DNA of 64,000 nt from positions 1-64,000 of the forward strand of contig CACWXP010000018.1 of the NCBI GenBank assembly GCA_902764875.1. Reading direction: 5' to 3'. This DNA comes from an uncultured Eubacteriales bacterium (GTDB taxonomy: Bacteria; Bacillota; Clostridia; Christensenellales; Aristaeellaceae). Below, in pieces: positions 2,511-52,189 of this stretch. The translations under genes were made by a program, and so were the position numbers. How positions within the stretch are numbered: position 1 is the stretch's first letter; every line of letters begins with the position of its first letter. The notes under the pieces were generated by a model that saw only the letters and a list, made by a program, of their open reading frames with translations, did no database searches and was not told where the DNA came from.

Positions 2511-2543
2511 AAAAAACGGCCCCATGGATTACTCCATAGAGCC
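2511..2543 (-). terminator. Rho-independent terminator of the maltodextrin operon
   Basis: Read on the minus strand, an 11-bp stem beginning GGCTCTATGGA pairs (with two G-U pairs) with TCCATGGGGCC around a GTAA loop and is followed by GTTTTTT. It sits 26 bases past the stop of the last transporter gene. The rest of 2236-2568 shows no gene. Confidence 0.8.
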
Positions 2544-2568
2544 TGACGGTTAGCTGACCGCAGTATCC

Positions 2569-3420: not shown

Positions 3421-3432
3421 AACGGCACCTCC

Positions 3433-4317: not shown

Positions 4318-4376
4318 GTACTCATCTCCGGAAAGTGTGGCGGAGCAGACAGCCTGCCCCGCCACAGGGTCAATGG

Positions 4377-5621: not shown

Positions 5622-5634
5622 GGGATCTTCCTCC

Positions 5635-8579: not shown

Positions 8580-10247
8580 TTATCCTTTACCCGTCCCAAA
8601 ATACTTCATCATTTCCTCGTTTGAAAGGCCAAAGTATTCCTGCGTCTGAAGATATACATACCACGGCCGTTTGATCATCGTCCCGTTTCTCATTCTGTCA
8701 ATCCGTCCCTTCCAGTATTCGTACGCTTCTTCCGCCGTCGTCGGCGCTTCCTGATTGAGAGCCGGTACATTATAGGGCGCCCAGCGCTCAAAGTGTTTCA
8801 TCATCTCCGGCTCCAGCATGGCCACGCATTGATCCAGTTCCGCCTGCATCACTTCCGTGGTCAGACTTTGATACAGTTTCCCCAGTTTTTCCAGAAACAG
8901 TTCCCTGTATTCATCAATTTCCAGGATCTTCAGGAAAATCGTGTTGTTCTGCTTTGTCGTACCAAAGCCCTCCGGCTTCAGATAGCTCTCCAACGCGTTA
9001 AATGAAGCGTTGAACAGGCCGTAATCCATGTCCAGCAAAGCACACTTCCATTTCTGCCCGTATATTTGATAGGTAAAGAATGTCGAGGCTGCGTCCGCGT
9101 TCCCGAAATACATCTCAATCGCCAGCCAGTTCAGATAACTGTCAATATCGACATTTTTCTCCAGATACTCCCTGTCCTCCGGATTGTTTGCGGGATCGCT
9201 TTTCTGCAGCCGGTTGACAAGCTCCAGGTATTCCATGTTTCCTTTGCTGCCTAACCCTTTCATCGTCGAAAGACTGTTCGATCCTGCAGGTTTTTCATAT
9301 TGAAAGATTGTATCCGCGTCCATGCTCTCCCGTATATTATACTGGCCCCAGTATTCGTCGTTCAGATAGACAACCACCGGCTTCCACGCAAGGGTCAGAA
9401 TGTTCAGGTCCGTATACTTTTCAATCAGCCGGCTCTGCACGCCGTCTGCCACGCGCGTGAGCAGGCAGTCTTTCCCGCCATTCTGCAAAAGAACAGACAG
9501 ATACACGTTATAGGGCCTGTCCTCAAACAGCGGGGTGTCAATCAGACCGTCTTTCACCCGAATCAACAGGCTTTTCTGCGGCATATCCATAGAATAACTA
9601 TCCCCGCCCAATTGTACGGTAACCGGCGATTCTGCCAGCAATTCTCCTGTGGATCCGGACGAATAGGTCATTTTTCCCTCCACGGATTGACCGATCATCT
9701 TCCGGTATACGGCGTTTTCAAAGGGAATCTGGCTTTTTCTGATTTCCGTTCTCTCCGCAAGGATTCCCGTTTCCTCATTCCACAGCAGATCCGGCTCCAC
9801 ATACAGATCAACCCGGTCCAAAGGCGGAACCTGATTGCCCGGTTTCTGCTGCGTGCTGACAGCCATCGGCAGCGGTGTCGGCAGTCCCGTTGATGCAGGC
9901 GTCAGGTCATCGGTTCCGTTGTCAATCAGTTGAGTTGCAGGATCGGGCTGAGTAATCTGATAACTCATATTTCTGTTCCGAATCATCATCCACAGCCCGG
10001 CAAGAAGGACAAAAGCAGCGCATAAAACCAGTGCAGCCCGCAGCCGCCGCAGGCGAGGTTGTTCGCCGGAAGGAAACGCCGGTTTCATCATAGCTTCTCC
10101 GTCACGGTTATAAACTGTAATCACAGGATCCGCCTCCCTTTTAACTTTTTCCAGAATTTCATGCTCCTGGGAAGGAAGCTCGTCCAGTCCTGTCAGGCTG
10201 TCGCGAACGGCCTGCTGAATCCGCTCCTGTACTTCATGCTCTTTCAT
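8580..10247 (-). CDS. Membrane-anchored CotH-like kinase-fold protein, partner of an ECF sigma factor
   Basis: A 555-residue protein. Residues 1-60 are cytoplasmic and acidic, a single membrane helix lies at about 72-92 (ALVLCAAFVLLAGLWMM), then a Thr/Pro-rich linker and an extracellular CotH-type domain with WKPVVVYLNDEYWGQYNIRE near residue 290 and CALLDMDYG near 400. CotH proteins are atypical kinases of spore-coat proteins and cell-surface proteins. The ATG overlaps the sigma-factor stop (ATGA), so the two are translated together; the N-terminal cytosolic part probably acts as anti-sigma factor (inference from position and topology). Confidence 0.8.
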   Translation of the reverse strand: MKEHEVQERIQQAVRDSLTGLDELPSQEHEILEKVKREADPVITVYNRDGEAMMKPAFPSGEQPRLRRLRAALVLCAAFVLLAGLWMMIRNRNMSYQITQPDPATQLIDNGTDDLTPASTGLPTPLPMAVSTQQKPGNQVPPLDRVDLYVEPDLLWNEETGILAERTEIRKSQIPFENAVYRKMIGQSVEGKMTYSSGSTGELLAESPVTVQLGGDSYSMDMPQKSLLIRVKDGLIDTPLFEDRPYNVYLSVLLQNGGKDCLLTRVADGVQSRLIEKYTDLNILTLAWKPVVVYLNDEYWGQYNIRESMDADTIFQYEKPAGSNSLSTMKGLGSKGNMEYLELVNRLQKSDPANNPEDREYLEKNVDIDSYLNWLAIEMYFGNADAASTFFTYQIYGQKWKCALLDMDYGLFNASFNALESYLKPEGFGTTKQNNTIFLKILEIDEYRELFLEKLGKLYQSLTTEVMQAELDQCVAMLEPEMMKHFERWAPYNVPALNQEAPTTAEEAYEYWKGRIDRMRNGTMIKRPWYVYLQTQEYFGLSNEEMMKYFGTGKG

Positions 10248-10759
10248 GATTCTTCGCTCCCTTCCAGTTCCGTTTTCAGTTTCGCGCAGGCTTTCTTGCA
10301 TCTTCTGGACACAGCGGAAGGCGTAATGTGGAGCGCCTCCGCGGTTTCCTTCAGATCCAAACCCTGCACATATCGCAGGATGATCACTTCTGAGTACTTC
10401 GGTGGCAGGTTCATGATAGCGGCCGTCAGCGTCAGGCGATTCTCGTCCGGTGGACTGGCTGAAACAGGAAGATCATCGATCTGAACAGAACGGTTCATAT
10501 GACAAATCCACGCACTGCGCAGATAATCCCGGCAAACATTCACCGCAATGGTCATGAGCCAGCCTTTCTCCTTTCCCGGATCCTGCTGGCTGTCCAGATG
10601 GGTATAGACCTTCAGAAAAGTGTCCTGTGCCGCATCTTTGGCCAGATCCACATCGTGAAGATACAGATAGCACAGGCGCAGGATGTCCTTCTCATACCGT
10701 CGGATCATTTCTGTCAGCCGTTCTTCCCGTCCGCACTCCGGGCCCTGGAGTCGCGTCAC
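10244..10759 (-). CDS. ECF RNA polymerase sigma factor
   Basis: A 171-residue group IV sigma factor. Region 2 is seen as YEKDILRLCYLYLHDVDLAKDAAQDTFLKVY (-10 recognition), with the usual WLMTIAVNVCRDYLR following. Region 4 has LPPKYSEVIILRYVQGLDLKETAEALHITPSAVSRRCKKA, a helix-turn-helix for the -35. It starts at GTG 10759 with GGAGGTGG upstream and is coupled to the CotH-like gene by a 4-base overlap. A TATAAT on the minus strand lies about 25 bases upstream of the start; I see no clear ECF-type -35. Confidence 0.92.
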   Translation of the reverse strand: MTRLQGPECGREERLTEMIRRYEKDILRLCYLYLHDVDLAKDAAQDTFLKVYTHLDSQQDPGKEKGWLMTIAVNVCRDYLRSAWICHMNRSVQIDDLPVSASPPDENRLTLTAAIMNLPPKYSEVIILRYVQGLDLKETAEALHITPSAVSRRCKKACAKLKTELEGSEES

Positions 10760-10942
10760 AGCTCACCACCTCCGTACACTATTATAGACGAAAACAAGCC
10801 GGGAAATTTGATCACCGACTTGTCTTTTTCGATCACATTCTGAGCCGTCTGTGTTTAACAGAAATCTTCATACCTGTTAATCATTCAGGAGTAAACATTT
10901 TCTGTAAAGTCTCAACGTCCAGATAGCGTTATGCAAATCCTA

Positions 10943-10971
10943 TTTACACCGTCTCATAATTGTGCTACAAT
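10943..10971 (+). promoter_or_regulatory. Promoter of the toxin-antitoxin pair
   Basis: TTTACA (10943-10948) and TACAAT (10966-10971) with a 17-base spacer lie 25 bases before the antitoxin start. Type II antitoxins usually repress such a promoter. Confidence 0.7.
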
Positions 10972-10996
10972 AATGATACAGGAAGGAGGAATAACT

Positions 10997-11266
10997 ATGC
11001 CGACAATAAAGCCAATCAGAGATTTACGGAATACCAGTGAGATTTCAGAATTAGCACATAAAATGCAGGAACCCATCTTTATCACTAAAAATGGATACAG
11101 CGACTTGGTTGTCATGAGTTCTGAACTATATGAGCGTTTTGCCCAGATCAATCGAATTGATCAGGCAATCTATGAAGCAGAAACTGAAGTTGCAGAAGGT
11201 GCTGCTCCAATTCCCCTGAATGATGCTAAAGCCAGACTGGACAGGAAGTACTATGGAAAAATATAA
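10997..11266 (+). CDS. Antitoxin, Phd/YefM family
   Basis: An 89-residue protein. The N-terminal half (IKPIRDLRNTSEISELAHKMQEPIFITKNGYSDLVVMS) has the Phd/YefM fold pattern, including the characteristic F-I-T-K-N-G-Y strand that precedes the dimer helix. It would bind its own promoter and neutralise the toxin through the acidic C-terminal tail. The start at 10997 has AAGGAGG eight bases upstream. It overlaps the toxin gene by 14 bases, ensuring coupled expression. Confidence 0.9.
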   Translation: MPTIKPIRDLRNTSEISELAHKMQEPIFITKNGYSDLVVMSSELYERFAQINRIDQAIYEAETEVAEGAAPIPLNDAKARLDRKYYGKI

Positions 11267-11555
11267 GGTTATGCTATATCCCAGAGCTTTTCGGGATATA
11301 GACGGTATATATGCTTATATTGCTTTGGAAAAGCTGGCTCCTGAAAACGCAAAAGGTCAAACAGACAGAATTTGGGCTGCTATTGAATCGCTGGCTTCTT
11401 TCCCATCAGCGCATCAGGATCGTCAGGTTGGAAGATATGCCGGAAGAGGTTATAAACAGCTGCTTATTGATAATTATGTGGTATTATTCAAAATTGATGA
11501 AAAACATAAAACAGTATATGTGGTTACGGTTCAGTATCAGGGAAGAAACATATAA
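11253..11555 (+). CDS. ParE/RelE-family toxin
   Basis: A 100-residue protein. YKVMLYPRAFRDIDGIYAYIA at the start and YKQLLIDNYVVLFKIDEKHKTVYVVTVQYQGRNI at the end are the classic RelE/ParE blocks (the Y-R-v-x-Y-x-v and V-x-x-V-x-x-x-R strands). Whether it cuts ribosome-bound mRNA (RelE) or poisons gyrase (ParE) cannot be decided from sequence. It is the second gene of the pair, starting inside the antitoxin gene, with AGGAAG upstream. Confidence 0.88.
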   Translation: MEKYKVMLYPRAFRDIDGIYAYIALEKLAPENAKGQTDRIWAAIESLASFPSAHQDRQVGRYAGRGYKQLLIDNYVVLFKIDEKHKTVYVVTVQYQGRNI

Positions 11556-11664
11556 TTCCTTTGGATTCCACCCTCGAAATTGTTACAGTCATAGCAGATG
11601 AACCCAACAAAGGGGAATGACATTTGTACCCGGTATCGCTGTCATGGGTGCTTCTGCGGTTGTC

Positions 11665-12768
11665 TCAGACCATCTTTCTTCTCTCGTGTCCGCCGCATTC
11701 AACTGAGTGCGTCCGTTCCTTCACCATATAAAGAGCCTTATCTGCTTCGGATACGAGCAAAAACAGTTCATAGTAACTTGCCGGATCGCCCTGGGCGCTG
11801 CCGATGGAAAGCGACACTTTGACGCCCGATGCCTCGTGGATGAAATCGTATGTATTTGCGCCGTAGTTATCCTGCGCCGGCCGATAGGTCAGCACCAGGA
11901 ATTCATCCCCGCCGTATCTGTAATACCTCGCGCTGGGAAACAGTTTTTTCAGAATCGAACTGGTCTCCTTCAGAATCTGATCGCCGACAACGTGTCCGTG
12001 CTGATCGTTGATTTCCTTAAAATAGTTGATGTCAATCATAAACGCCGTCATATGATCGCCGCTGGTATCTCTGGCATCTTTCTCAAGGGCTAGACGGTTC
12101 CGCAGGCCGGTCAGGCCGTCCCTTCGGCTTGCCTCCTCCAGCGCCTGGTTGGTATCCAGGAGTGTCCTTTCCTTTTTGCAGGAATAAATATGGCTGTGAT
12201 AATGCACTGCGTTGCAGGCAATCGTGAGGAAGGCAAGCACAATGAAGTTCAGCGGTTCGATTCCCGCTGCCCGGTCGAAGAAATACAGTGTCAGATACAG
12301 CACCAGATACGAGCTGCCGGAAAGGATCAGGCCGATCCACGGCTTAAAAATGATAAAGCACGTCATGATCAGATTCACGGAATAGAAGGTCAGCATCTGT
12401 TCTCCGACCTTGTAATGCCGGTAATCCGTAAATATGGCCCACAGGGAAAAAACGACGAAAAAGAACACCTTGAAAGTGATGCACTCACTTCGCGTAAGAT
12501 CCTTTTTCTCCATCATCTTCTTCGAGAAGAAAACCGCCAGGCCGCACATCAGCAGGCAATATGCAACGCAAATCGTGGTGACGATTTCATTGTGGCCGAA
12601 GGACCGAGCGTTTGCGAAAAGAAACACCACAAAAGAAAGGCTCTCAAAAGCCAGAATGATCATTGAAATCCTGTGGATATTCCGCATGCTCATCCGGTCA
12701 ATTTGCTTTGAAATATCCGGATCCACCGACGGTACAATGTATCCTAAAAATCTGCGTATCAGATTCAT
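11665..12768 (-). CDS. Membrane-bound diguanylate cyclase (GGDEF)
   Basis: A 367-residue protein with five or six hydrophobic helices in residues about 35-200 and a C-terminal GGDEF domain (about 205-360). It starts DGLTGLRNR and carries YRYGGDEFLVL, an intact active-site loop, so c-di-GMP synthesis is likely. No RxxD inhibitory site precedes the loop. The helical N-terminal region has no named sensor that I recognise. The start at 12768 has a GAGGTTGAG upstream. It appears to be a lone gene. Confidence 0.9.
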   Translation of the reverse strand: MNLIRRFLGYIVPSVDPDISKQIDRMSMRNIHRISMIILAFESLSFVVFLFANARSFGHNEIVTTICVAYCLLMCGLAVFFSKKMMEKKDLTRSECITFKVFFFVVFSLWAIFTDYRHYKVGEQMLTFYSVNLIMTCFIIFKPWIGLILSGSSYLVLYLTLYFFDRAAGIEPLNFIVLAFLTIACNAVHYHSHIYSCKKERTLLDTNQALEEASRRDGLTGLRNRLALEKDARDTSGDHMTAFMIDINYFKEINDQHGHVVGDQILKETSSILKKLFPSARYYRYGGDEFLVLTYRPAQDNYGANTYDFIHEASGVKVSLSIGSAQGDPASYYELFLLVSEADKALYMVKERTHSVECGGHERRKMV

Positions 12769-39546: not shown

Positions 39547-41310
39547 TTACTTAATATACTCCAGCGCGCTCTCCGCCGCAATCCGGCCGAAGATCACGAT
39601 GTCCGCAACCGCGTTGCCGCCCAGGCGGTTGCCGCCGTGCACGCCGCCGGTCACTTCGCCCGCGGCGAACAGTCCGGGAATGGCCTGGCCTTCGGTGTTG
39701 ATCACCTGTGCCGCCGTGTTGATCTTCACGCCGCCCATCGTGTGATGGATGCCGGGAGCGATCTTGATGGCGTAGTAGGGCGGAGTCGTCAGATCCGCGT
39801 CCATGCCGGTGGTGCGCCCGAAGTCGGGATCCCGCTGGTTCTTGACGTACCCGTTCCAGTCTTCCAGCGTCTTCGCCAGCGTGGCCGGGTCAATCGCCAG
39901 CAGTTCCGCCAGGCCTTCAATCGTGTCCGCCTGCACGGTGATGCCGCTCTTCACGTACTTCTCCGTCGCCTTCAGGTGATCCCGCAGGTTCTGGTCAAAG
40001 ATGATCCACGCGTACTGTCCTTCCTGCTCCAGTTCCGCGGCAGAAACCGCGTCGCGGGTCAGCAGTTCGTTCGTGAAGCGCACGCCGCTCTGGTTCACCA
40101 GGATCGCGCCGTCGCCGCGAACGGATTCGGTAATCAGCATGGAAGTCGTCTGTTCCACCGTCGGATGCAGCTGAATCTGTTCAATGTCCACCAGATCCGC
40201 GCCCAGCGCCTGGGCCATCACGATGCCGTCGCCCGTCGCTCCGGGGGCGTTGGTCGTAACGGTGCCCTTCAGGTCCGGCCGGTACTGGGTGTACATGTCC
40301 TCGTTCGCCCCGAAGCCGCCCGTCGCCAGGATCACCGCCTTGCAGTTGATGGTGTAGTTGCTGTCTTCGCCTTCCGCCTTCACGCCGCAGATCTTGCCTT
40401 CCGCGTCCGTCAGCAGCTCCGTTGCCGCCGTGTTGAACATGATCTGCACGCCCAGTTCGTCCAGCTTCGCGCTGAACCGGTCCACCAGATATCCGCCCAC
40501 GCCGCTGCCGTCTTCCGGCGCGTGGATGCGGTTCACGGAAGCGCCGCCGGAATAGGAAATCTTCGGCAGTGACGCGCCGATGGTGTCCAGCCAGTCAATG
40601 GCCTCCGCGCTCCGGTTCGCCAGTGTTGCCACCAGTTCCGGATCGTTCAGCGCGTGGCCGCCTTTCATCGTGTCCGCGGCAAACAGCGCCGTGGAGTCCT
40701 CAATCCCCTGTTCTTTCTGATAGTGGGTTTCCGCGGCGTTCATGCCGCCGGTCGCCTTGGTCGTGTTGCCGCCGGCATAGGGCATTTTCTCAAGCAGCAC
40801 GAATTTCTTCCCCGCCTGATGCACCATGATCGCCGCCGACATGCCGGCGCCGCCCGCGCCGATGATCACGATTTCCGTGTCGATGGTCTTTTCTTCCTTG
40901 GGACCGGTCTCTCCCTGGTCCTTCCGGTTTGCGTCCAGCACGTCGATGTCCGCGCCCGCCGCCTCCAGGGCCGCCGTCGCCGCCTTGATGATCGCGTTGC
41001 TGGTCACCGTTGCGCCGCTCAGCGCGTCCACGTTCGGCGTCTGCGCTTCCATGATGCTCGCCGACAGCTTTCCGGCCGCCAGTCCGCCAAGCTCCGGCGT
41101 CTCGCCGGTGGCATCAATCAGCACGCCGGTAATCGCGTTTTCGCTCACCGTGATTGTAACCTTCACCGGTGCGAAAATGCCCTGTTCCTCCGCCGTATAT
41201 GTTCCGGGGGTAAACAGGTTTTCCGCCGGGGCTTCCGCGGCTTCCCCGAAGGCGCAGGCGCAGCCCAGCATCATCGCGAGGGTCAGTAACAGGCAAATCA
41301 GTTTTTTCAT
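39547..41310 (-). CDS. Exported FMN/FAD flavoprotein, fumarate-reductase-like (FrdA family)
   Basis: A 587-residue exported protein. A signal peptide (MKKLICLLLTLAMMLGCACA) is followed by an FMN-binding domain (about 35-125) with the covalent FMN motif LSGATVTSNA at residues 97-106, and then a FAD-dependent fumarate/succinate reductase-type domain (IVIIGAGGAGMSAA at about 147, ILATGGFG, HPTVEQ, and GLFAAGEVTGGVHGGNRLGGNA). It would reduce an external acceptor such as fumarate, urocanate or another enoate with electrons from a membrane donor. LGC may also serve as lipobox. It has its own promoter and lies downstream of the Rnf-Nrf operon. Confidence 0.92.
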   Translation of the reverse strand: MKKLICLLLTLAMMLGCACAFGEAAEAPAENLFTPGTYTAEEQGIFAPVKVTITVSENAITGVLIDATGETPELGGLAAGKLSASIMEAQTPNVDALSGATVTSNAIIKAATAALEAAGADIDVLDANRKDQGETGPKEEKTIDTEIVIIGAGGAGMSAAIMVHQAGKKFVLLEKMPYAGGNTTKATGGMNAAETHYQKEQGIEDSTALFAADTMKGGHALNDPELVATLANRSAEAIDWLDTIGASLPKISYSGGASVNRIHAPEDGSGVGGYLVDRFSAKLDELGVQIMFNTAATELLTDAEGKICGVKAEGEDSNYTINCKAVILATGGFGANEDMYTQYRPDLKGTVTTNAPGATGDGIVMAQALGADLVDIEQIQLHPTVEQTTSMLITESVRGDGAILVNQSGVRFTNELLTRDAVSAAELEQEGQYAWIIFDQNLRDHLKATEKYVKSGITVQADTIEGLAELLAIDPATLAKTLEDWNGYVKNQRDPDFGRTTGMDADLTTPPYYAIKIAPGIHHTMGGVKINTAAQVINTEGQAIPGLFAAGEVTGGVHGGNRLGGNAVADIVIFGRIAAESALEYIK

Positions 41311-42562: not shown

Positions 42563-43378
42563 TCAGGCATAGCTGTGAATGCCGGGCAGGAAGGTATTCA
42601 CGCCGATATAGGTAAAGATCACACAAACGAATCCGATCACAGCGAAAATCGCCGCCGCCTTTCCTTTCCATCCTCTTCGCAGCCGCAGGTGCAGATACAC
42701 CGCATAGATAATCCACGTCACCAGCGACCAGGTCTCCTTCGGGTCCCAGCTCCAGTAGCTTCCCCAGGCCCGCTCCGCCCAGATCGCGCCGGTAATGATC
42801 GTGAGGGTCAGGAACAGAAGCCCCAGGCACACGCTGCGGTAGGCAATCAGGTCCAGCTTGTTTTCCGTCGGAATATGCTGATCCAGGAATCCGTTTTCCT
42901 TCAGTTTCCCCCGCATCAGGAAAATGGCGCTCAGCGCGGCGCTCACCCCGAACGAGCCGTAGGCAATGATCGCCGTGGAAACGTGGAACGCCAGCCATCC
43001 GCTCTGCAGCGCGGGCATCAGCGGTTTGATGTCCCGGCTTTGCATCGCCGCGTATCCCATGATGATGAAGATAATTGGCATGGCGAAAACGCCCAGCACC
43101 GAAAACCGGTATTTCCGGATGAAAATCAGACTCACCAGGCATAGCGCCCACGCGAAGCACGTGGCAAACTCATACTGGTTCGTCATCGGCAGCCGCCCCG
43201 CCGCGATGCCCCGCAGCACCAGCGCCGCCGTGTGCAGGATCAGCGCCGCGCCCTGAAGGATCCCGGCCGCCCGGGCCAGCTGTTCCTTCTTCAGAACCAC
43301 AAAGAGGAAGTACAAAGCCATCGCGCCGAAGTACCCGATCATCGTGATCGTAAACAAAATATTCTCAGCGTTTTGCAT
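42563..43378 (-). CDS. ccsA: Cytochrome c biogenesis protein CcsA
   Basis: A 271-residue membrane protein with about eight helices. The WWD haem-handling motif of System II is clear: WGSYWSWDPKETWSLVTW near residues 203-220. With ResB it exports haem and attaches it to CxxCH apocytochromes. It starts one base after the resB stop. Presence of its only visible client, the pentaheme NrfA, three genes upstream on the same strand suggests dedication to it. Confidence 0.95.
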   Translation of the reverse strand: MQNAENILFTITMIGYFGAMALYFLFVVLKKEQLARAAGILQGAALILHTAALVLRGIAAGRLPMTNQYEFATCFAWALCLVSLIFIRKYRFSVLGVFAMPIIFIIMGYAAMQSRDIKPLMPALQSGWLAFHVSTAIIAYGSFGVSAALSAIFLMRGKLKENGFLDQHIPTENKLDLIAYRSVCLGLLFLTLTIITGAIWAERAWGSYWSWDPKETWSLVTWIIYAVYLHLRLRRGWKGKAAAIFAVIGFVCVIFTYIGVNTFLPGIHSYA

Positions 43379-43379
43379 T

Positions 43380-44660
43380 TTAACCGTTTCCCTTCTTCGT
43401 CCGGTGAGTTCCCGCCGTCTTCACGGCTTCTTCAATAGCCTCCGCCATCAGCGCCTGCCCCTTCCGGCAGCGTCCCCGCAGGATCCATTTCCCGTTCTCC
43501 CCGCGGATCGTCCACAGTGTCTTCGGCTGCAGGCAGAAAGCCATCAGCAGCCCGATCATCGTGATCACGCCGCCCACCAGTGCCAGCGGTGCGAACCGGT
43601 CCTGCCGCGCCACCAGCAGGGTGAAAGTCCGCGGGCTGAAGGTCACCTGATCCCCGCCCACGTCGATCGTTCCGTCTCCTAAGAAATAGTAGTCCTGCTG
43701 CAGCGTTCCGTTCCGGTAAAGATCGTAGAAATAGAGCGTCCGGTCTTCCGCCCCTTCTTCCCGCATCGTCCGGATCCCGGCAAAGTAGAAGGCATATTCC
43801 GGCTGATCCTCCAGGCCCAGAACGCTCTCCGCCATTGTTCCCTGCGGCAGCAGCGTTTTCCGCTGAATCTCCTGCCCGTCCCGTTCCACCGTGGCCAGCG
43901 CCGCCGCTCCAGTGTTGTTCTGATAAAGGGTAAATCCGCCGAAGGACGCCGGGTGGTTCACGCTCACGGAGGCTTTTTCGGTTTTGCCGGAAACGGGATC
44001 CGTCACCGTGATTTCCGTCACATATTGATCCACGCTTCCGTCTTCCCGCGTTTCCGTCCGGAAGTCGTCAATCGTCACCGTCAGTCCCGTCTCCGGCAGT
44101 TCCTTCGTCTCTCCCGGAATCCCCCACACGGTATTTTCCTTCAGTGTCATCTGTCCTAGAGCAAATCCCGCAATCAGCAGCAAAATCCCCAGGTGGCAGA
44201 TCCAAGCGCCCCAGATGCCGGCAGCATTCTTTCCGGCAATCAGGGCTTCCCTGCCGTCTTTCGTCGTGTGCTTCTCCGGCGTGCCCATGTGCAGCGCGCC
44301 GAACACGCTTTCCGGATCGCCGGTTTCCCTCTCTCCCAGGTTGCCGTCCGTTTCAAGCGCTCCCGCAAAATCCTTTTCCGCGCGGTATCTGCGCCGGAAA
44401 AATGGAAACCGGATCACGCTGCAAAGAATCAGGTTCAGGCAAAGGAATCCGCTCAGCGCTATAAACCAGATGCTGTGATACGCGTCGTTCACCTGCAGCG
44501 CCATAATCAGCGAGGCAGTTCCTTCCCCATACCGCGCGGCATACATTTCTTGCGTCAGCCCCTGTTCCACCAGCGAACTCAGCGCGCAGGCCGCCGCCAG
44601 CACCACCAGCAGCGTCACCGCAAAGCCCATGGAGGAAAGGAATTTACCGATCTTCTTCAT
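43380..44660 (-). CDS. resB: Cytochrome c biogenesis protein ResB (CcsB)
   Basis: A 426-residue protein with helices near residues 10-30, 62-85, 150-172 and 370-390 and a large extracytoplasmic domain between the last two. ResB hallmarks are the SSMGFAVTLLVVLAAACALSS start, NDAYHSIWFIALSGFLCLNLILC, and HLGILLLIAGFALGQ. It is the second half of the System II synthetase. An intra-operon hairpin separates it from nrfA. Confidence 0.93.
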   Translation of the reverse strand: MKKIGKFLSSMGFAVTLLVVLAAACALSSLVEQGLTQEMYAARYGEGTASLIMALQVNDAYHSIWFIALSGFLCLNLILCSVIRFPFFRRRYRAEKDFAGALETDGNLGERETGDPESVFGALHMGTPEKHTTKDGREALIAGKNAAGIWGAWICHLGILLLIAGFALGQMTLKENTVWGIPGETKELPETGLTVTIDDFRTETREDGSVDQYVTEITVTDPVSGKTEKASVSVNHPASFGGFTLYQNNTGAAALATVERDGQEIQRKTLLPQGTMAESVLGLEDQPEYAFYFAGIRTMREEGAEDRTLYFYDLYRNGTLQQDYYFLGDGTIDVGGDQVTFSPRTFTLLVARQDRFAPLALVGGVITMIGLLMAFCLQPKTLWTIRGENGKWILRGRCRKGQALMAEAIEEAVKTAGTHRTKKGNG

Positions 44661-44739: not shown

Positions 44740-47121
44740 TCAGCGAATTTTCGCCAGGATCTCCGTCACGGCTTCCTTCACGGCGTCCGAGGAAATCGTC
44801 GCGCCGGTCACGGTGTCGATTTCCGCCCCCTGGGTTTCCACAATCGCTTTCGCCCAGTTCGCTTCGTTTTCGTCCGTCACCAGATCCGTCTGTCCCTCTT
44901 TCGCGTCGCAGATCACCTTACATTCGACAATCTCTCCGCTGTGGGTGCTGATAATCACCCGGATGGTGCTGAAGGCCGTTTCCTTTTCTGCCAGGTAGCC
45001 GCCGTAAGCACTGGGAGTCTTTGTTTCTTCGGTCTTGGCTTCCTCCGCAGGCTTCTCCTCAGCGGGTTTTTCTTCAGCAGCCGGTTCTTCGGCTTTGTCT
45101 TCCTCAGCAGGTTTCTCTTCAGCAGCCGGTTCCTCGGCCTTTGCTTCTTCCGCCGGCTGTTCCGCCGCGGGAGTTTCTCCTGCGATCTGCTGCAGAATCT
45201 CCGCCACGGCTTCCTTCACAGCGTTCGACGAAACCGTCGCGCCCGTCACGTTATCCAGTTCGGCTCCCTGGGTTTCCACAACCGCTTTCGCCCAGGCTTC
45301 TTCGTTTTCATCCGTCACCAGATCCGTCTGTCCTTCTTTGGCTTCGCAGATGATTTTGCAGCCGGTGATCACGTCGTTCTTAGTGTTCACAAGCACGCGG
45401 ATCTTGCTGAAGTCGGTTTCCTTCTCGGACATATAGCTGCCGTAAACCTGTCCGTCGGAAGCGCTGCTTTCTGTCTTCGCAGCCGTCTCTGCAGGCTGTT
45501 CCGTCTTTTTCTCTTCAGCAGTTTTTTCCTCCGCAGCCGGTTCTTCCGTCTTGGTCTCCGCTGCCGCGGGTTCCTCAGTCTTAGTCTCCTCCGCAGGAGC
45601 CGCAGCAGTACCGCCGACCAGTCCGTTAATCGCCTCCAGCACAGCGTTCGAAGTAATCGTCGCGCCGCTCAGGGCGTCAATCCCGTTCTCCCCATAGGTG
45701 AACGGTCCGGCTTTGCCGATAAACTGATCTGTGAATTCCGCCTCACTAGCCCGCTGGCCAAGGCCCGCGGTTTCATTCGGCGTGTCAATCGTAAGCGTCT
45801 TCACGGTGCCGTCGTCGTTCAGTTCCACCTGAACCGTCACGTCGCCGCCAAAGCCCTGCACCGTCGCGCTCAGCGCGCCGTCCGCCGCCGGAGTCTCCTC
45901 CGCAGCCGCCGCCGGCGCTTCACCGGTCAGCAGTGTCATGGCCTCCGCGATCTTCTCGTCCGCGGTGTCCAGGCACCGGATCGAAAGCTTGCTGTTATGC
46001 GCGCCTTCCGAGTTCTCCACGTAGCAGAAGTCGAAGAACCACTGGGCTTCCCGGTGCAGCTTCCGAACCGCGTCCAGCTCTTCTTCCGTCATCTTCGCTT
46101 CTGAAACAGCGACCGTCAGCTTGTCCTTCAGCTCGCTCAGGCGGTTCCCGGTCTCGGTCTCCCGTGCGGTCACCTTTTCCTGCGTGCTGGTCACAAGCGC
46201 CTTCGCCGCGTCCGCGCTGCCGTGGCAGCTCGCGCAGGTCGCCATCAGCGTCTCGCTCTTCAGCGGGCTCACCAGGTAATGGCTGTGATAGGTCGTGCCG
46301 TCCTCGGCTTTTTCCTCCGCCATGTGGCAGCTCGAGCAGTTCAGGCCCATCGTCGCGTGGGCGCTGGCCAGGAAGGTTTCCATTTCCGGATGCTGCGCCT
46401 TCAGCATCTTCGTGCCTGTCCCGGGCTGCTCCCAGTCGCTGAAGCCCTTCTCGTCGTAGTAGGCCAGAATCGCTTCCGGCGTCATCTCTTCCTTGCTGGA
46501 ATACGGCATCATCGTCTCGCTGTCTTCCGGCGTGAAGTAGTATTCAATGTGGCACTGACCGCAGTTCAGCGTCTTCGGATCGATGGCGGAAGCGTTCTCG
46601 CCCAGCGCCTTGTCCACATAGCTGTGGGTAATCACGATCTGCCCGTTGTTCCCCTTGTCGTCCCCGTGGCAGGTGTAGCAGGAGATCGCCTGGGTCATCT
46701 GCCCCATCACGTCGTCAAAGGGCCGGCTGTAAACCTCAACGCCTTCCTCGTTCACCATTTTCGTGAAGTCCGGCGTTTTGCAGGTAATGCAGTTCGCCTT
46801 GGCGTGGGGCCGCTGGGTCTTCGTCACGTCTTCCAGCGTGTACGCGTGCCCGCGCGCCGCCTTGTAATCTTTCGCAAATCCGTATCCCTCATAGATATTG
46901 ACCAGATAAGGATCCTGCTCCAGATAGTCCTCGGCCTCGCTGTTTTCCGCGTTTTGCGCCATGGTGTCGGTAATCCCCTGCAGCATCGGTGTCAGCGGCT
47001 CTTCCACCTGATACGTCAACGGTTTCCCGCCGATGATCCCTGTCAGGAAGATCACCGCCACAGCCACCGCCAGGATGCTCACGCCGATCCGGGTCGCCTG
47101 TTTTTTCCTGAAATAATTCAT
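44740..47121 (-). CDS. nrfA: Pentaheme nitrite reductase NrfA fused to three FMN-binding domains
   Basis: A 793-residue protein. Residues 12-32 form an N-terminal membrane anchor. The NrfA body (about 35-400) has five haem sites: CITCK (111-115, the Lys-ligated active haem), CYTCH (148-152), CGQCH (187-191), CSSCH (262-266) and CASCH (296-300). Active-site residues match E. coli NrfA: R104, Y194 (in CHIEYYF), and H244 (in KAQHPE, whose K and Q bind Ca2+). A late His ligand lies in SEGAHN. Then come FMN-binding domains with LSGAT (484-488), VTGAT (625-629) and VTGAT (771-775), joined by Glu/Ala/Pro/Lys-rich linkers. It lies between rnfB and resB. NrfH is absent. Confidence 0.93.
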   Translation of the reverse strand: MNYFRKKQATRIGVSILAVAVAVIFLTGIIGGKPLTYQVEEPLTPMLQGITDTMAQNAENSEAEDYLEQDPYLVNIYEGYGFAKDYKAARGHAYTLEDVTKTQRPHAKANCITCKTPDFTKMVNEEGVEVYSRPFDDVMGQMTQAISCYTCHGDDKGNNGQIVITHSYVDKALGENASAIDPKTLNCGQCHIEYYFTPEDSETMMPYSSKEEMTPEAILAYYDEKGFSDWEQPGTGTKMLKAQHPEMETFLASAHATMGLNCSSCHMAEEKAEDGTTYHSHYLVSPLKSETLMATCASCHGSADAAKALVTSTQEKVTARETETGNRLSELKDKLTVAVSEAKMTEEELDAVRKLHREAQWFFDFCYVENSEGAHNSKLSIRCLDTADEKIAEAMTLLTGEAPAAAAEETPAADGALSATVQGFGGDVTVQVELNDDGTVKTLTIDTPNETAGLGQRASEAEFTDQFIGKAGPFTYGENGIDALSGATITSNAVLEAINGLVGGTAAAPAEETKTEEPAAAETKTEEPAAEEKTAEEKKTEQPAETAAKTESSASDGQVYGSYMSEKETDFSKIRVLVNTKNDVITGCKIICEAKEGQTDLVTDENEEAWAKAVVETQGAELDNVTGATVSSNAVKEAVAEILQQIAGETPAAEQPAEEAKAEEPAAEEKPAEEDKAEEPAAEEKPAEEKPAEEAKTEETKTPSAYGGYLAEKETAFSTIRVIISTHSGEIVECKVICDAKEGQTDLVTDENEANWAKAIVETQGAEIDTVTGATISSDAVKEAVTEILAKIR

Positions 47122-47139: not shown

Positions 47140-47934
47140 TTAATTCACCGGAGTGGTAATGACTTTCGCCGGGCACTTGGCCGCGCATTTGCCGCACAGC
47201 GTGCACTTCTCGGGGTTCACCCTTGCCAGCGTCCCGTCAAATTCAATCGCGCCGAATTCGCACTGCTTCGCGCATAGGCCGCATCCGATGCACCCCGCGC
47301 TGCAGATCTTCCGAACCACCGGGCCCTTGTCCCGGTTCGAGCACTGCACCCGCACGATCCGGCTTTCCGGAATCAGCGAGATCAGTCCCCGCGGGCAGGT
47401 CTTCACGCACAGTCCGCAGCTCACGCACCGGCTCCGGTTCACAACGGCAACGCCGTTCACAACGCTGATCGCCTGCTCCGGGCAAACCTCCGCGCAGCTC
47501 CCGAATCCGAGGCACCCGTAGGTGCAGTCCGTAATATTCATCCCGCTCAGCACCGCCGCCCGGCAGTCCTGAATGCCCGTGTAGTTGCCCTGGTTCTTCG
47601 TCACTTCGCATGTGCCCTTGCAGGCCACGAAAGCGGTCTTCCGTTCCATGGCCCCGGCCTTGGTGCCCATGATGTCGCCGATCGCCTCGGCCACCGGCCC
47701 GCCGCCCACCGGGCAGGCGTTCACCGGCGCTTCCCCGGCTGAAATCGCCGCCGCCAGCGCGTCGCATCCCGCGAATCCGCAGGCGCCGCAGTTGTTCCCC
47801 GGCAGTTTCCCGCGGATGGCCACCACCCGCTCGTCGACCTTCACGGCGAATTTCTTCCCGGCGTAAACCAGTCCCACGGCAACCAGCACCGCGATCACCG
47901 CGATCACAAGGGTCGTAATCCAGATAATATCCAT
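47140..47934 (-). CDS. rnfB: Rnf complex subunit RnfB
   Basis: A 264-residue protein with an N-terminal helix (4-25) and the RnfB cluster CGACGFAGC (49-57, plus C74), then further [4Fe-4S] motifs, including CTYGCLGFGSCAEVCP, CVSCGLCVKTCP, CIGCGLCAKQCE and CTLCGKCAAKCP. RnfB takes electrons from reduced ferredoxin. It starts 13 bases after rnfA and is followed, 18 bases later, by nrfA. Confidence 0.96.
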   Translation of the reverse strand: MDIIWITTLVIAVIAVLVAVGLVYAGKKFAVKVDERVVAIRGKLPGNNCGACGFAGCDALAAAISAGEAPVNACPVGGGPVAEAIGDIMGTKAGAMERKTAFVACKGTCEVTKNQGNYTGIQDCRAAVLSGMNITDCTYGCLGFGSCAEVCPEQAISVVNGVAVVNRSRCVSCGLCVKTCPRGLISLIPESRIVRVQCSNRDKGPVVRKICSAGCIGCGLCAKQCEFGAIEFDGTLARVNPEKCTLCGKCAAKCPAKVITTPVN

Positions 47935-47947
47935 CTTTCGGCCCTCC

Positions 47948-48526
47948 TTAAATGTTCAGTCCGCCGAAGCCCATAAACGCGATGGACATCAGCGCCGCGG
48001 CGATCATCACGATCGGGGCACCCCGCAGGGGCGCGGGCAGGTCCTTCTCGTTGATCCGGCTGCGGATGCCCGCCAGCAGGACGATGGCGATCGTGTAGCC
48101 CAGGGCGGTGCCGAAACCGCTGGCCACGCTCTCGATGAAGTTGAATCCGTCCTTCACGTTGTTCAGCGCCACGCCCAGCACCGCGCAGTTCGTGGTGATC
48201 AGCGGCAGGTAAATGCCCAGCGACTGGTAAACCGCCGGCGATTTTTTCTTCAGGAACATTTCAACGATCTGCACCAGCGCCGCGATCACCAGGATGAAGA
48301 TGATCGTCTTCATGAAGTCCATGCCCAGGGGCTTCAGCACGTTGTCGTACAGCAGGCTCGCCACCGCCGATGCGATGGTGATAACGAAGATGACCGCCGC
48401 GCCCAGGCTGATGGAGGCCTTCATCTGTTTGCTCACGCCGAGGAAGGAGCAGATGCCGAGGAACTGGTTCAGCACCACGTTGCTGATCAGCGCGCTGCCG
48501 ATGATGATCATGATCAGGCTCTTCAT
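47948..48526 (-). CDS. rnfA: Rnf complex subunit RnfA
   Basis: A 192-residue membrane protein with six helices. Two half-helix Cys, C26 (in FLGICSFLG) and C114 (in TTNCAVLG), are the RnfA ligands of the intramembrane [2Fe-2S] cluster shared with RnfE. The start overlaps the end of rnfE by four bases (ATGA), so the two homologous halves are translated together. Confidence 0.96.
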   Translation of the reverse strand: MKSLIMIIIGSALISNVVLNQFLGICSFLGVSKQMKASISLGAAVIFVITIASAVASLLYDNVLKPLGMDFMKTIIFILVIAALVQIVEMFLKKKSPAVYQSLGIYLPLITTNCAVLGVALNNVKDGFNFIESVASGFGTALGYTIAIVLLAGIRSRINEKDLPAPLRGAPIVMIAAALMSIAFMGFGGLNI

Positions 48527-49302
48527 TTCGCCGCTCCCCCTTCCGCTTTATTTTCCGCCGCCTTCGGGTCCGCTTTCTCTGCCGGTTTCTCCGCCGCCGC
48601 TTTCACCGCGCCGCCCGCGGCCGCGTCCGCCGCCGGTTTCGTCTCGCAGCTTCCGGCCGTCGAGCAAAGCGCGCAGTTCCCGTCGCATCCGCTTTCAACC
48701 AGCTTCCGCTGCCGCGTCTTGATGCCGATGGCGTTCATCACCGCGATGATCAGCGCGAACACCAGGAAAGCTCCCGGAGGCTGAATGAAAATCGTCATTC
48801 CGAAGCCTTCCGGCAGAATCTGCGCGCCGAAGATCTTTCCGCTCCCCAGCAGCTCCCGGATCGCCCCGGCCAGCGTCAGCGCCGCCGTGAAGCCCAGGCC
48901 CATGCCGATGCCGTCCATCACGGAGAGCAGCGGCGTGTGCTTGTTGGCATAGGCTTCCGCCCGGCCCAGGATGATGCAGTTCACCACGATCAGGGGAATA
49001 TAGATGCCCAGTGCCTCATAAATGTCCGGCAGATAGGCTTTGATCAGCAGCTCCGTCACCGTCACCAGGCTGGCCACTATCACGATGTACGCGGGCAGCC
49101 GAACCTGGTCCGGAATCACTTTCCGCAAAATGCTGATCACCAGGTTGCTCAGCACCAGCACCGCCAGCGTGCTCAGGCCCATGCCGATGCCGTTGGCCGC
49201 CTGCGTGGAAACCGCCAGCGCCGGGCACATGCCCAGCATCAGCACCAGCACCGGGTTTTCCTTCAGCAGGCCGTTAAAGAGGCGTTCCCAGTATTTTTTC
49301 AT
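48523..49302 (-). CDS. rnfE: Rnf complex subunit RnfE with a Cys-containing C-terminal extension
   Basis: A 259-residue protein. The membrane part has C26 (GMCPALAV) and C109 (VVNCIILGR), the [2Fe-2S] ligands. Most RnfE proteins end near residue 200-210; this one continues with CDGNCALCSTAGSC (Cys 206, 210, 213, 219) and an Ala/Lys/Glu/Pro tail of about 40 residues. The cluster may bind metal. It starts three bases after the stop of rnfDG. Confidence 0.93.
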   Translation of the reverse strand: MKKYWERLFNGLLKENPVLVLMLGMCPALAVSTQAANGIGMGLSTLAVLVLSNLVISILRKVIPDQVRLPAYIVIVASLVTVTELLIKAYLPDIYEALGIYIPLIVVNCIILGRAEAYANKHTPLLSVMDGIGMGLGFTAALTLAGAIRELLGSGKIFGAQILPEGFGMTIFIQPPGAFLVFALIIAVMNAIGIKTRQRKLVESGCDGNCALCSTAGSCETKPAADAAAGGAVKAAAEKPAEKADPKAAENKAEGGAAK

Positions 49303-49304: not shown

Positions 49305-50843
49305 TCAGTTGCCTCCCTTCAGAACCGTGTCGTAGAGTTCAAGTCCGGCGTTCAGCGCTTCCGTTACCGCGCCCGATGTCACCGATGCGCCCGTAATCGC
49401 GCTGATCTCCGATTCGCCCTCCGCCGTGCCTTTCACCAGGGTCAGCGTCCCGCCCTTGCCGATCAGCTGATCCTTGAAGGCCGGTTCGTCCGCCCGCATG
49501 CCGAGGCCCGCGGTCTCCTTCAGTTCCGTGAAGGAGATGCCCGTAATCTTTCCGTCCGCGTCCAGGCCCATCGCCAGCGTAACGTCGCCGCCGAAGCCTT
49601 TCCCCGTCACGCTCAGCGCGTAGCCGATGGTGTTCCCGCCGGCGTCCTTGGCGATGTACGCCTTGTTCACCCGGGGCGTCGTCTCTGCCATGGCCGCGAT
49701 TTTGTCGTTCGCCGCCTCCGCCACTTCGAAGCTGTCCGCGTCGGCGCAAACCGCCTTGTAGGCTTCCGTTTCCTTGGCCAGTTCCTGTCCTTCGATCGTT
49801 TCCTTCGTCATCGAGAACACGCCGCTCAGCGCCACCCCGGCGATCAGCGCGATGATCGTCAGCGCGATCACCGGCTTCGGAATCCGGAAGGGCTCGCGCT
49901 TCACCGGCCGGGTCTTCCCGATCTTCCGGTAGGCCAGCGGCTTCTGAACGATGTAGGTGTCAATCAGCGGCGTGCAGACGTTGCCGATGATAATCGCATA
50001 GCTGAAGCTGTCCGCCGTGTTGCCCCACAGGCGGAAAATCCCGCCCAGCACGCCGATCAGGCAGCCGTAGATGAACTGCCCCAGCCGGCTCACCGGGCTG
50101 GTCACGTAGTCCGTCGCCATGAAGAAGGCGCCCATCACCACGCCGCCGCCGCAAAGATGCGCCAGCAGGAAGCGCGGCTCAAATCCCTCGCCGCCGAACA
50201 GGCCGATCAGCAGCGTGAAGCCGATCAGCACGCTGAAGCAGATCTGCCCGTGAATGATGTCCAGGCTCCACAGCAGCAGCCCGCCCACCAGCAGCGCCAG
50301 GATGGAGCTGCCGATCACGCCGTCCGCCGTCCCCAGGAACATTTTCGTAATGTCAACCTGCTCGAAGGCTTTCAGCGCGCCCACCGGCGTCGCCGAGGCC
50401 ACCGCGTCCAGCGAGGGCTTGATCGTCATCGCGTTCGCGAAGGAAATCAGCAGGAAGCACCGGGCCGCCAGCGCCGGGTTGATGAAGTTCTTGCCCAGTC
50501 CGCCGAAGCAGCCTTTGCAGACCACGATCGCGAAAACCGATCCGATCACCGGCAGGTAAAGGGGCGTCTTCGGCCCAAGGCTCAGGCCCAGCAGCAATCC
50601 CGTCACCACCGCGCTCCCGTCCCAGATCGTGTCCGGCTTGTGGCACACCTTGTTGAAAACCCATTCGGAAGCCACCGCGGCCACAACCGCCAGCGCCACG
50701 ATCCCGAAGGCCTGCCATCCGTGCACCAGGATGCCGACGATGGTGGCCGGCATCAGGCTCAGCGCCACCATGCGCATGATGAATGGCGTGGTCCATTTGT
50801 CCCGAATGTGCGGGGACGAAGAAAGATTCAGCACACCGTTCAT
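49305..50843 (-). CDS. RnfD-RnfG fusion protein
   Basis: A 512-residue fusion. Residues about 1-310 are RnfD: helical, with the covalent FMN site SATP (150-153, Thr 152). From about 328 a further membrane helix (VIALTIIALIAGVALSGVF) begins RnfG, whose external domain carries the FMN motif ITGASVTSGA with Thr/Ser 484-487. In most bacteria these are separate genes. The order rnfC-D-G-E-A-B is that of Clostridia. The fusion fixes a 1:1 ratio and orders the two flavins in the external electron path. It overlaps rnfC by four bases. Confidence 0.93.
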   Translation of the reverse strand: MNGVLNLSSSPHIRDKWTTPFIMRMVALSLMPATIVGILVHGWQAFGIVALAVVAAVASEWVFNKVCHKPDTIWDGSAVVTGLLLGLSLGPKTPLYLPVIGSVFAIVVCKGCFGGLGKNFINPALAARCFLLISFANAMTIKPSLDAVASATPVGALKAFEQVDITKMFLGTADGVIGSSILALLVGGLLLWSLDIIHGQICFSVLIGFTLLIGLFGGEGFEPRFLLAHLCGGGVVMGAFFMATDYVTSPVSRLGQFIYGCLIGVLGGIFRLWGNTADSFSYAIIIGNVCTPLIDTYIVQKPLAYRKIGKTRPVKREPFRIPKPVIALTIIALIAGVALSGVFSMTKETIEGQELAKETEAYKAVCADADSFEVAEAANDKIAAMAETTPRVNKAYIAKDAGGNTIGYALSVTGKGFGGDVTLAMGLDADGKITGISFTELKETAGLGMRADEPAFKDQLIGKGGTLTLVKGTAEGESEISAITGASVTSGAVTEALNAGLELYDTVLKGGN

Positions 50844-52189
50844 TTTCCTGCGCCCCCTTCCCTCTTTTTCTTCTCCTGAATCTCGGCCTTGGCGTGTTTA
50901 AACACCTGCATCAGTGGCCGCTTCGCCGGACAGGCCACCGTGCAGCTGCCGCACTGGATGCATTCCAGGCCGTACAGTTTCTTTTCATACCGTTCCAGGT
51001 TCCCCGCGATCGCGGCTTCCGCCATTAGCTGGGGCATCAGCCCGACCGGGCAAACCGTCGTGCACCGGCCGCACCGCAGGCACGATGTCATCAGCTTCTC
51101 CGCCGCCACCACCGGGTCCTCCGCCAGCAGCGTCAGGCCGTTGTTCTGCTTCTGAATCGGAACGTCGAGGCTGCCCATCGCCACGCCCATCATCGGGCCG
51201 CCGGCCAGCGCCTTCACGGCTTCCTTCCCTTCCTTTATGCCGCCGCATGCCGCCAGCAGTTCCGCATAGCTCGTTCCCACGCGCACGAAGAAGTTCCCGG
51301 GCTCCGCCACCGCCTCGCCCGTCACCGTGAAGCACTGGCTGAACAGCGGCTCGCGGTAAAGCACCGCCCGCTGAACCGCGTAGAGTGTCCCCACGTTCTG
51401 CACGATGCAGCCCACGTCCGCCGGCAGCTTGCTGATCGGGAAGTCAACCCCCGTCACCGCCTGAATCAGGCTGCGCTCGCCGCCCTGGGGATATTTGGTG
51501 ATCATCCCGTGAACGCTGATCTTCTGCTTGCCCTGGGCCGCCAGTTTCATGGCCTGAATGGCTTCCGGCTTGTTGTCTTCGATACAGATCACGCCCTCCG
51601 CGTTCGGGAAAAGCCGCAGCACCAGTTCCAGCCCTTCCACGATCGCCGGCGCATGGGTCCGCATCAGCTGATCGTTGCATGTCAGGTAAGGTTCGCATTC
51701 CGCGCCGTTGGCGATCACGTATTTGATCGCCTCCGGATCCTTCGGCGCCAGTTTCACGTGGGTCGGGAATCCCGCGCCGCCCAGGCCGACGATGCCCGCG
51801 TCCTGAACCCGCTGAAGAATCTTGCTGGGGCTCAGGTTGGCCTCCTTGTCGCGCTTGGAATAGTCCGCCGCCGGCGTAAACGCCCCGTCGTTGTCGATCA
51901 CGATGCATTCCGCCATGCCGCCGCCCAGCACCCGCCGCTTTTCAATCGCCTTCACCTTGCCCGAGCAGCTTGAATAGATGTGGGCGGAAACAAATCCGTC
52001 CGCCTCCGCGATCTTTTGGCCGACCAGTACGTCGTCCCCTTTTTTGACGATGGCCTTCGCGGGTTTGCCGATGTGCTGCTGCAGGGGGAATACCATCTCG
52101 CCCTGCGGGTCAAACAGGCGCAGCCGCGCCTCCCGGCTCAGCTCCTTGCGCCCTTCCGGATGAACGCCGCCGTGAAAAGTGTTTTTCAC
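50840..52189 (-). CDS. rnfC: Rnf complex subunit RnfC
   Basis: A 449-residue soluble subunit that meets NAD(H). It shows the Gly-rich VGLGGAGFPTHVKL (FMN/NADH site, about 137-150), IANGAECEPYLTCND, and two [4Fe-4S] motifs CLRCGRCTTVCP and CIQCGSCTVACP near the C-terminus. It starts at a GTG with AAAGGAG about 11 bases upstream and heads an eight-gene unit ending with ccsA. Confidence 0.96.
   Translation of the reverse strand: MKNTFHGGVHPEGRKELSREARLRLFDPQGEMVFPLQQHIGKPAKAIVKKGDDVLVGQKIAEADGFVSAHIYSSCSGKVKAIEKRRVLGGGMAECIVIDNDGAFTPAADYSKRDKEANLSPSKILQRVQDAGIVGLGGAGFPTHVKLAPKDPEAIKYVIANGAECEPYLTCNDQLMRTHAPAIVEGLELVLRLFPNAEGVICIEDNKPEAIQAMKLAAQGKQKISVHGMITKYPQGGERSLIQAVTGVDFPISKLPADVGCIVQNVGTLYAVQRAVLYREPLFSQCFTVTGEAVAEPGNFFVRVGTSYAELLAACGGIKEGKEAVKALAGGPMMGVAMGSLDVPIQKQNNGLTLLAEDPVVAAEKLMTSCLRCGRCTTVCPVGLMPQLMAEAAIAGNLERYEKKLYGLECIQCGSCTVACPAKRPLMQVFKHAKAEIQEKKKREGGAGK

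Follow-up and report, generated by a model that had tools for sequence, protein, structure and literature searches.

Pentahaem nitrite reductases of the NrfA type are known to receive their electrons from quinol-linked cytochromes, namely NrfH, or NrfB together with NrfCD. The locus described here raises the question of how such an enzyme is supplied when it shares a polypeptide with three flavin mononucleotide (FMN)-binding domains. It was found in an uncultured Eubacteriales bacterium of the Aristaeellaceae (assembly GCA_902764875.1), within the first 64,000 nucleotides of contig CACWXP010000018.1; this whole stretch is what we call the window, and the fused gene occupies positions 44740..47121 of its minus strand. 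According to the original prediction, made from the sequence and its open reading frames, the flavin tails replace NrfH as the site of electron entry. We find instead that nrfA stands immediately behind all the rnf genes, an order that recurs in relatives whose NrfA carries no flavin domain, and we consider it fairly probable that the fusion is a membrane-anchored, extracytoplasmic, ammonia-forming nitrite reductase acting as terminal reductase of the Rnf complex. The function most likely served would be quinone-independent, Rnf-driven nitrite ammonification.

A complete NrfA and three flavin domains in one frame

The fused gene is a single frame of 793 amino acids with no internal stop codon. 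Its product begins with a hydrophobic helix (residues 1-31, 47029..47121 (-); helix 2-27 in the structure model) that is likely an uncleaved membrane anchor, and residues 1-39 are 74% identical to the start of a multi-FMN protein of genome G012 that itself has no NrfA. The pentahaem NrfA domain spans residues 46-409 (45895..46986 (-)), as indicated by a Pfam Cytochrom_C552 match (residues 55-409, expectation value (E) 2.6e-82, 277.6 bits, cut-off 24.1), by aligned residues and by Foldseek. The model was matched to the NrfA structures 2rdz_A (E 2.9e-16), 3ubr_A (E 2.0e-15) and 1fs7 (E 2.5e-14), with a template modelling score to 2rdz_A, normalised to the target, of 0.67 for a haem-free model that is moderately confident over parts of the haem domain.

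The CITCK motif at residue 111 (46777..46791 (-)), for attachment of the catalytic haem with its Lys ligand, is followed by CYTCH 148, CGQCH 187, CSSCH 262 and CASCH 296. Alignment with E. coli NrfA (b4070, precursor numbers) pairs R104 with R106, K115 with K126, E193 with E215, Y194 with Y216, K241 with K261, Q243 with Q263 and H244 with H264. Among 92 aligned NrfA rows, which include the window's own and one genome (G030) twice, R104 is retained in 91 and the six other residues in all; H92, H255, H281 and H375, which align with His residues of E. coli NrfA and presumably are the distal haem ligands, are likewise retained in 92 of 92. We take the aligned residues to have the active-site and calcium-site roles of their counterparts; in the case of Tyr218 of NrfA, the equivalent of Y194, the role as calcium ligand is described in PMC8840924. 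The window protein thus shares with the NrfA of E. coli NrfABCD and of the Wolinella and Desulfovibrio NrfHA systems the fold, one CxxCK and four CxxCH motifs, the Arg/Tyr/His set and the Glu/Lys/Gln residues of the calcium site. It differs from them in its likely membrane anchor, its three FMN_bind domains, its place among rnf genes and the fact that NrfH and NrfB were not found; in addition, it has 9 residues fewer than E. coli and S. oneidensis NrfA in the loop ahead of CxxCK. The protein is probably an extracytoplasmic, ammonia-forming nitrite reductase, with nitrite as its presumed physiological substrate.

Behind the haem domain, Pfam FMN_bind matches in three stretches (E 1.4e-32), namely residues 415-505 (45607..45879 (-)), 556-648 (45178..45456 (-)) and 702-793 (44743..45018 (-)), each with its attachment motif (SGAT 485, TGAT 626 and TGAT 772). 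The second and third domains are 66% identical, whereas the first is only 28% identical to the second and 25-28% to the others. This first domain is RnfG-like, being matched by RnfG models below their cut-off, but the fusion reaches only 64.7 bits against TIGR01947 (rnfG; cut-off 102) and so fails as an RnfG. Ala, Glu, Thr, Lys and Pro are frequent in the linkers (506-555 and 649-702), for which disorder is predicted, with a predicted local distance difference test score (pLDDT) of about 30. The source genome, a draft of 67 contigs with a single NrfA match, holds one ApbE gene and nine FMN_bind stretches, some of them on other contigs; ApbE probably attaches FMN covalently to the tail domains of the fusion. 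The strict [ST]GA[ST] motif occurs in 57 of the 74 FMN domains in the surveyed set of fused proteins, and variants such as AGAT, SGVT and SSAT in the other 17.

The original prediction had read this frame as a full pentahaem NrfA followed by three domains with SGAT or TGAT motifs on linkers, a reading that is borne out by the family matches, the alignment and the structure comparison; covalent FMN, which ApbE would attach, is suggested by the motifs and the ApbE gene. All parts also look constrained, NrfA most, given the low ratios of nonsynonymous to synonymous substitution rates (dN/dS) throughout: when the window is compared with L032 or L033, dN/dS is 0.10 for NrfA, 0.14-0.17 for the first FMN domain and 0.24-0.42 for the second and third, in close pairs only and with dS near saturation; over all such pairs the first FMN domain ranges from 0.14 to 0.19. 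Values for the second and third domains of L034 were left out as short chance alignments, since that contig ends after the first.

The rnf genes ahead of nrfA

In the window, a run of genes on the minus strand reads rnfC-rnfDG-rnfE-rnfA-rnfB-nrfA-resB-ccsB, with neighbouring genes from rnfC to nrfA separated, or overlapping, by no more than 18 base pairs (bp). It consists of rnfC (50840..52189; TIGR01945, 488 bits, cut-off 246), rnfD and rnfG fused in one frame (49305..50843; NQR2_RnfD_RnfE at 7-302 and FMN_bind at 416-502), rnfE (48523..49302; TIGR01948), rnfA (47948..48526; TIGR01943), rnfB (47140..47934; TIGR01944), the nrfA fusion and two genes of system II cytochrome c maturation, resB (43380..44660; PF05140, E 4.4e-46, with no NCBIfam match) and a ccsB-type haem lyase (42563..43378; TIGR03144, 268.9 bits, cut-off 187.6). 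All six rnfABCDGE functions are thus found; rnfC, D, E, A and B exceed their NCBIfam cut-offs, and the RnfG part of RnfDG scores 84.6 bits with TIGR01947, below the cut-off of 102. The RnfDG structure model has a mean pLDDT of 73. Since RnfG is already fused to RnfD, the NrfA-FMN protein must be regarded as an extra chain.

Relatives were collected by one scan of genome contigs with the NrfA-FMN protein (the best 80 of 104 kept), which gave 79 loci labelled Clostridiales, Clostridia, Lachnospiraceae, Spirochaetales and others, many of them from ruminant gut samples. As the NrfA-FMN protein was the only query, association with Rnf was not selected for. Upstream sequence of 5.5 kilobases (kb) or more was available for 60 loci, and 59 of these have rnfC, rnfDG, rnfE, rnfA and rnfB in this order on the nrfA strand. 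In 56 of the 59, no more than 150 bp separate rnfB from nrfA, overlaps counted, and in one the distance is 180 bp. RnfB is present in 71 of the 74 loci with at least 0.8 kb upstream (the exceptions being L067, L079 and L106), resB in 76 of 79 and ccsB in 74 of 79. The fusion of RnfD to RnfG is common to all 67 rnfD frames of these loci. CxxCK occurs in 79 of 79 relatives, and five haem motifs in 77 (L073 has ten, L097 four).

FMN domains are present on only 14 of the 79 NrfA frames; the other 65, of which 63 are complete, have none. As most of these NrfA proteins lack flavin tails and yet stand behind rnf genes, it is Rnf rather than the tails that appears to substitute for NrfH. The claim that the tails take the place of NrfH is therefore not upheld; more likely, Rnf does so via the FMN of RnfG, and the tails are an optional added relay.

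NrfH, NrfB and quinone synthesis

Searches for the NrfH/NapC family (PF03264) gave no match in 61 genomes belonging to the genus and order, in the 50 locus genomes searched or in 12 genomes of a further set that overlaps the others, the E. coli control being positive each time. NrfB-like proteins (PF22678) were likewise not found in the first of these sets (61 genomes), again with a positive E. coli control, and no other frame with at least three CxxCH motifs was flagged in the relatives' loci. In agreement with the original prediction, then, no nrfH gene was detected in the genome of the window.

On the side of the quinones, no MqnA/D family member was found in the source genome, MenD and other menaquinone genes not having been searched for; its single UbiA-family protein is best matched by decaprenyl-phosphate phosphoribosyltransferase models, below their cut-offs.

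Varied architectures of the fused proteins

In all, 18 complete fused proteins were counted; they come from loci L032-L110, from five same-genus stretches (L126, L127, L128, L132 and L137) and from the window; L003, L005, L006, L007 and L016, with 3-5 FMN domains, were left out, some of them being copies of counted loci. L039 and L127 are near kin within this set. The FMN domains lie only before NrfA in 7 proteins, only after it in 3 and on both sides in 8, and they number 1, 3, 4, 5 and 6 in 1, 6, 1, 6 and 4 proteins, respectively. An idea that three FMN could act as a capacitor, storing the six electrons for one nitrite, was rejected as a rule, given FMN numbers from 1 to 6.

On the NrfA tree, the fused label changes at least five times over starred (well-supported) branches, a count that truncated or divided frames may have raised: L046 stops at its contig end, and in L079 the frames with FMN domains overlap that of NrfA in a different phase. 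L128 and L065 stand apart on the tree regardless of such frames, and a single origin of the fusion is not supported.

Two of the fused proteins include a flavin adenine dinucleotide (FAD) part that is fumarate-reductase-like, arranged as FMN-FAD-NrfA in L065 (8129-11050) and as FMN-FMN-FAD-FMN-NrfA in L132 (G030; 2238-5897). A further architecture is that of L128 (G032), which belongs to a second NrfA lineage (48% identity). This protein of 1083 amino acids is an RnfG-FMN4-NrfA chain, and it scores 225.4 bits with TIGR01947 over five stretches, above the cut-off of 102, the best stretch covering model positions 3-185 of 187. The gene ahead of it matches ApbE below the model cut-off. In G013 (77% complete), which is kin to L128, rnfD runs directly into rnfE with no rnfG between them, and the sole RnfG-like match is an apbE-linked three-FMN protein encoded on another contig (the contigs concerned are L154 (C253) and L162 (C1)). 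An FMN frame on contig C220 of G013 was considered as a second RnfG and set aside, as by eye it is not RnfG-like, no family search having been made; it opens with a lipoprotein-like signal, has two FMN-type stretches and runs off the end of the contig.

The slot behind rnfB can also be filled differently. In G012, G004 and G011 it holds a multi-FMN protein without NrfA, and neither resB nor ccsB was seen in the stretches of these genomes that were examined. FMN proteins were seen in the stretches of G003, G017 and G036, rnf and nrfA were not. The varied architectures and the swapped slot indicate modularity: within one Rnf-linked theme, NrfA and the flavin domains can be separated.

A proposed route from Rnf to nitrite

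We propose that reduced ferredoxin (or reduced nicotinamide adenine dinucleotide, NADH, via RnfC) would pass electrons to RnfB and on to RnfA/E, then to the covalent FMN of RnfDG, and that they would leave Rnf at the outward-facing RnfG flavin, enter the NrfA chain and reach haem 1, where nitrite would be reduced to ammonium; neither quinone nor NrfH would take part. In the majority of the relatives collected, the unfused NrfA would take electrons directly from RnfG. In the window and its close kin, the string of ApbE-attached FMN on flexible linkers would be a movable relay added to NrfA; linkers of approximately 50 residues with low predicted order fit such mobility. The relay probably lets the reductase act farther from the membrane, or lets Rnf serve other acceptors too. 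Whereas the domains, the catalytic residues, the conserved gene order, the lack of NrfH and NrfB matches and the repeated gain of flavin domains are read from the sequences, the electron path and its direction are inferred, and Rnf may or may not pump ions when electrons leave it at RnfG.

The potentials of the end points lie near -400 to -500 mV for ferredoxin and near +340 mV for nitrite/ammonium. With -184 mV for SaFMN3, a comparable multi-FMN protein (PMC10339131), the direction of electron flow would be favourable. A broader proposal, whose chances we hold to be evenly balanced, is that of a modular quinone-free platform on which Rnf passes ferredoxin-derived electrons to covalent flavins and these in turn feed exchangeable extracytoplasmic reductases, NrfA being the nitrite module that can be swapped, doubled, joined to a fumarate-reductase-like module or, in one lineage, fused to RnfG.

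If correct, this would be a new route of nitrite respiration in fermenting gut bacteria, in which NrfA is tied to the ferredoxin-oxidising Rnf complex. Ferredoxin electrons would go onto nitrite rather than hydrogen, which may bear on rumen methane and on nitrite detoxification. The role of multi-flavin chains has been called generally unclear (PMC8238504, section 18), and the natural series of fusions, with 1-6 flavins on either side and with or without a second reductase, offers a test set for multi-flavin electron transfer.

Observations that weigh against the proposal, and alternative readings

Several observations count against the proposal. All 79 loci come from a search with the window protein and are closely related to it, so that the 59 of 60 is uninformative on NrfA at large. 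Locus L106, the sole exception among the 60, reads nrfA-resB-ccsB with no rnf in 9.7 kb upstream; in L059 and L072, nrfA lies 1.4 kb and 3.5 kb behind rnfB, an frd-like gene standing between the two in L072. Genome G023 has an rnfDG-type operon without nrfA behind it and its NrfA on another contig. The unfused NrfA of the second lineage (G009, G013 and G023) have no Rnf genes alongside, nor does L128; searches gave no relative of RnfDG in G009 and no RnfD in G032 (54% complete). The NrfA of G006 has Trp in place of the active-site Arg, the sole change at the catalytic and ligand positions compared in the 92 rows. As for NrfH, most genomes in the searches are drafts, and 50 of the 79 locus genomes were covered. 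In G472, PF03264 missed an NrfH-like frame split by two Ns (L146:1121-1620) beside nrfA; the CxxCH count did flag this frame, and is thus able to see one. Finally, a class-wide draw yielded NrfA in 5 of 391 genomes, the window's own included, and in three of these (G242, G320 and G427) NrfA comes without a PF03264 match, an NrfH-like frame or adjoining rnf genes, so a missing NrfH is not special to Rnf-linked NrfA. Since the absence of NrfH is weak on its own, it is the gene order and the fusion to RnfG that carry the argument.

An artefact of assembly, or a chance joining of two genes, might be suspected in a draft of 67 contigs, but its probability is practically negligible: the frame contains no stop, matches that run from NrfA into the tail were obtained in G020, G034 and G033 with 62-80% identity, 18 complete proteins are fused in one type or another, even if some of them, L039 and L127 for instance, are closely related, and the flavin domains retain the low dN/dS given above for close pairs near saturation of dS. 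As the same type of fusion occurs in other genomes, the sequencing error that the original prediction had named as a danger is rejected. It is improbable, in our view, that the tails are the main electron entry replacing NrfH, fed by a donor other than Rnf (a soluble flavin, an extracellular shuttle or another flavoprotein), with Rnf a mere neighbour. Such a role would suit FMN domains found on either side of NrfA, the further FMN_bind stretches on other contigs of the source genome and the second-lineage fusion L128, which has no adjoining rnf; however, 65 of 79 relatives show no FMN domain on NrfA, 59 of 60 testable loci have Rnf genes ahead of nrfA, and the L128 fusion itself starts with a full RnfG.

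The flavin chain could instead serve chiefly other acceptors (fumarate-like compounds, iron or shuttles), with NrfA as one module on a multi-acceptor platform. We regard this as unlikely, albeit with more than passing appeal: L065 and L132 join a fumarate-reductase-like FAD domain to NrfA in one chain, multi-FMN proteins without NrfA occupy the same slot in G012, G004 and G011, and the neighbourhood of the operon holds frd-like FMN proteins in several relatives and in the window, where a flavoprotein of the fumarate/urocanate reductase type with FMN_bind and FAD parts is encoded downstream of it (39547..41310 (-)). Set against this are the complete catalytic set of NrfA, the maturation genes beside nrfA in 74-76 of 79 loci and the strongest purifying selection, which falls on NrfA. 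It is likewise doubtful that nitrite is not the main substrate and that the enzyme detoxifies hydroxylamine, nitric oxide or sulfite without energy conservation. W. succinogenes NrfA does reduce sulfite, and its Tyr218Phe variant retains sulfite reduction (PMC8840924), but Tyr194 (the equivalent of Tyr218), Arg104 and His244 are retained in 91-92 of 92 rows, and a complete Rnf set stands ahead of nrfA in 59 of 60 loci. Rnf as electron donor to a nitrite reductase thus remains the account that we prefer.

Relation to known systems

In its broad lines the architecture has a precedent. Méheust et al. 2021 (PMC8238504, section 18 and the legend of Fig. 6H) devote one sentence to 'multi-flavinylated RnfGs' with 'a multi-heme cytochrome domain' in Christensenellales, and these are very probably proteins of the same kind as the window fusion, with which they share more than one FMN_bind domain, a multihaem domain and a place in an RNF cluster. 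The supposition that the fusion was undescribed therefore stands only in part: the architecture had been noted, but in the available portions of that paper the protein is neither named as NrfA nor linked to nitrite and its sequence features are not reported, and 'nrfA' gives no match in the main text. The proteins described there are RnfGs, while in the window RnfG sits on RnfD; the relative L128 does pass as an RnfG. Recognition of the haem part as NrfA, the Rnf-NrfA gene order with unfused NrfA, the fumarate-reductase-NrfA fusions and the RnfG-FMN4-NrfA chain were not found in the available portions of PMC8238504, PMC11334425, PMC12052999, PMC10339131, PMC12285233 and PMC12998184. Neither an NrfA-FMN_bind fusion nor an Rnf-NrfA operon is named in the titles and abstract openings among the matches listed, with most subscription journals and all preprints lying outside that search.

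Repeated FMN_bind domains on flexible linkers are likewise found in SaFMN3 and CbFMN4 (PMC10339131; PDB 8p2a and 8p2b); unlike the window fusion, these have no haem domain mentioned in the portions of that paper at hand. Sequence comparison matches the window protein to both 8p2a and 8p2b. A multihaem cytochrome that, to our knowledge, has no flavin domains is MmcA of Methanosarcina acetivorans. It presumably acts with Rnf, a parallel also drawn in PMC8238504, and it was placed in the tetrathionate reductase family with NrfA only as outgroup (PMC11024163). In Sporomusa ovata, NrfA is paired with NrfH in the ordinary way (PMC12780646).

Further observations on the loci

Some loci depart from the common layout. 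L073 encodes two tandem NrfA domains with ten haem motifs in 811 amino acids (9962-12397), and in L094 (8954-11071) rnfB and nrfA form one frame of 705 amino acids, in which a lost stop and an assembly slip are indistinguishable. The NrfA of L014/L134 (G006) ends in IDPETMMRPRP-like repeats in place of FMN domains. In G320, G427 and G242, of the same class as the window, RnfD and RnfG are separate in the Rnf operons. A scan of the window for promoters and terminators remained at chance level (3 promoters versus 2.2 expected, 11 terminators versus 9.5 expected); a weak minus-strand box lies 88-116 bp 5' of rnfC.

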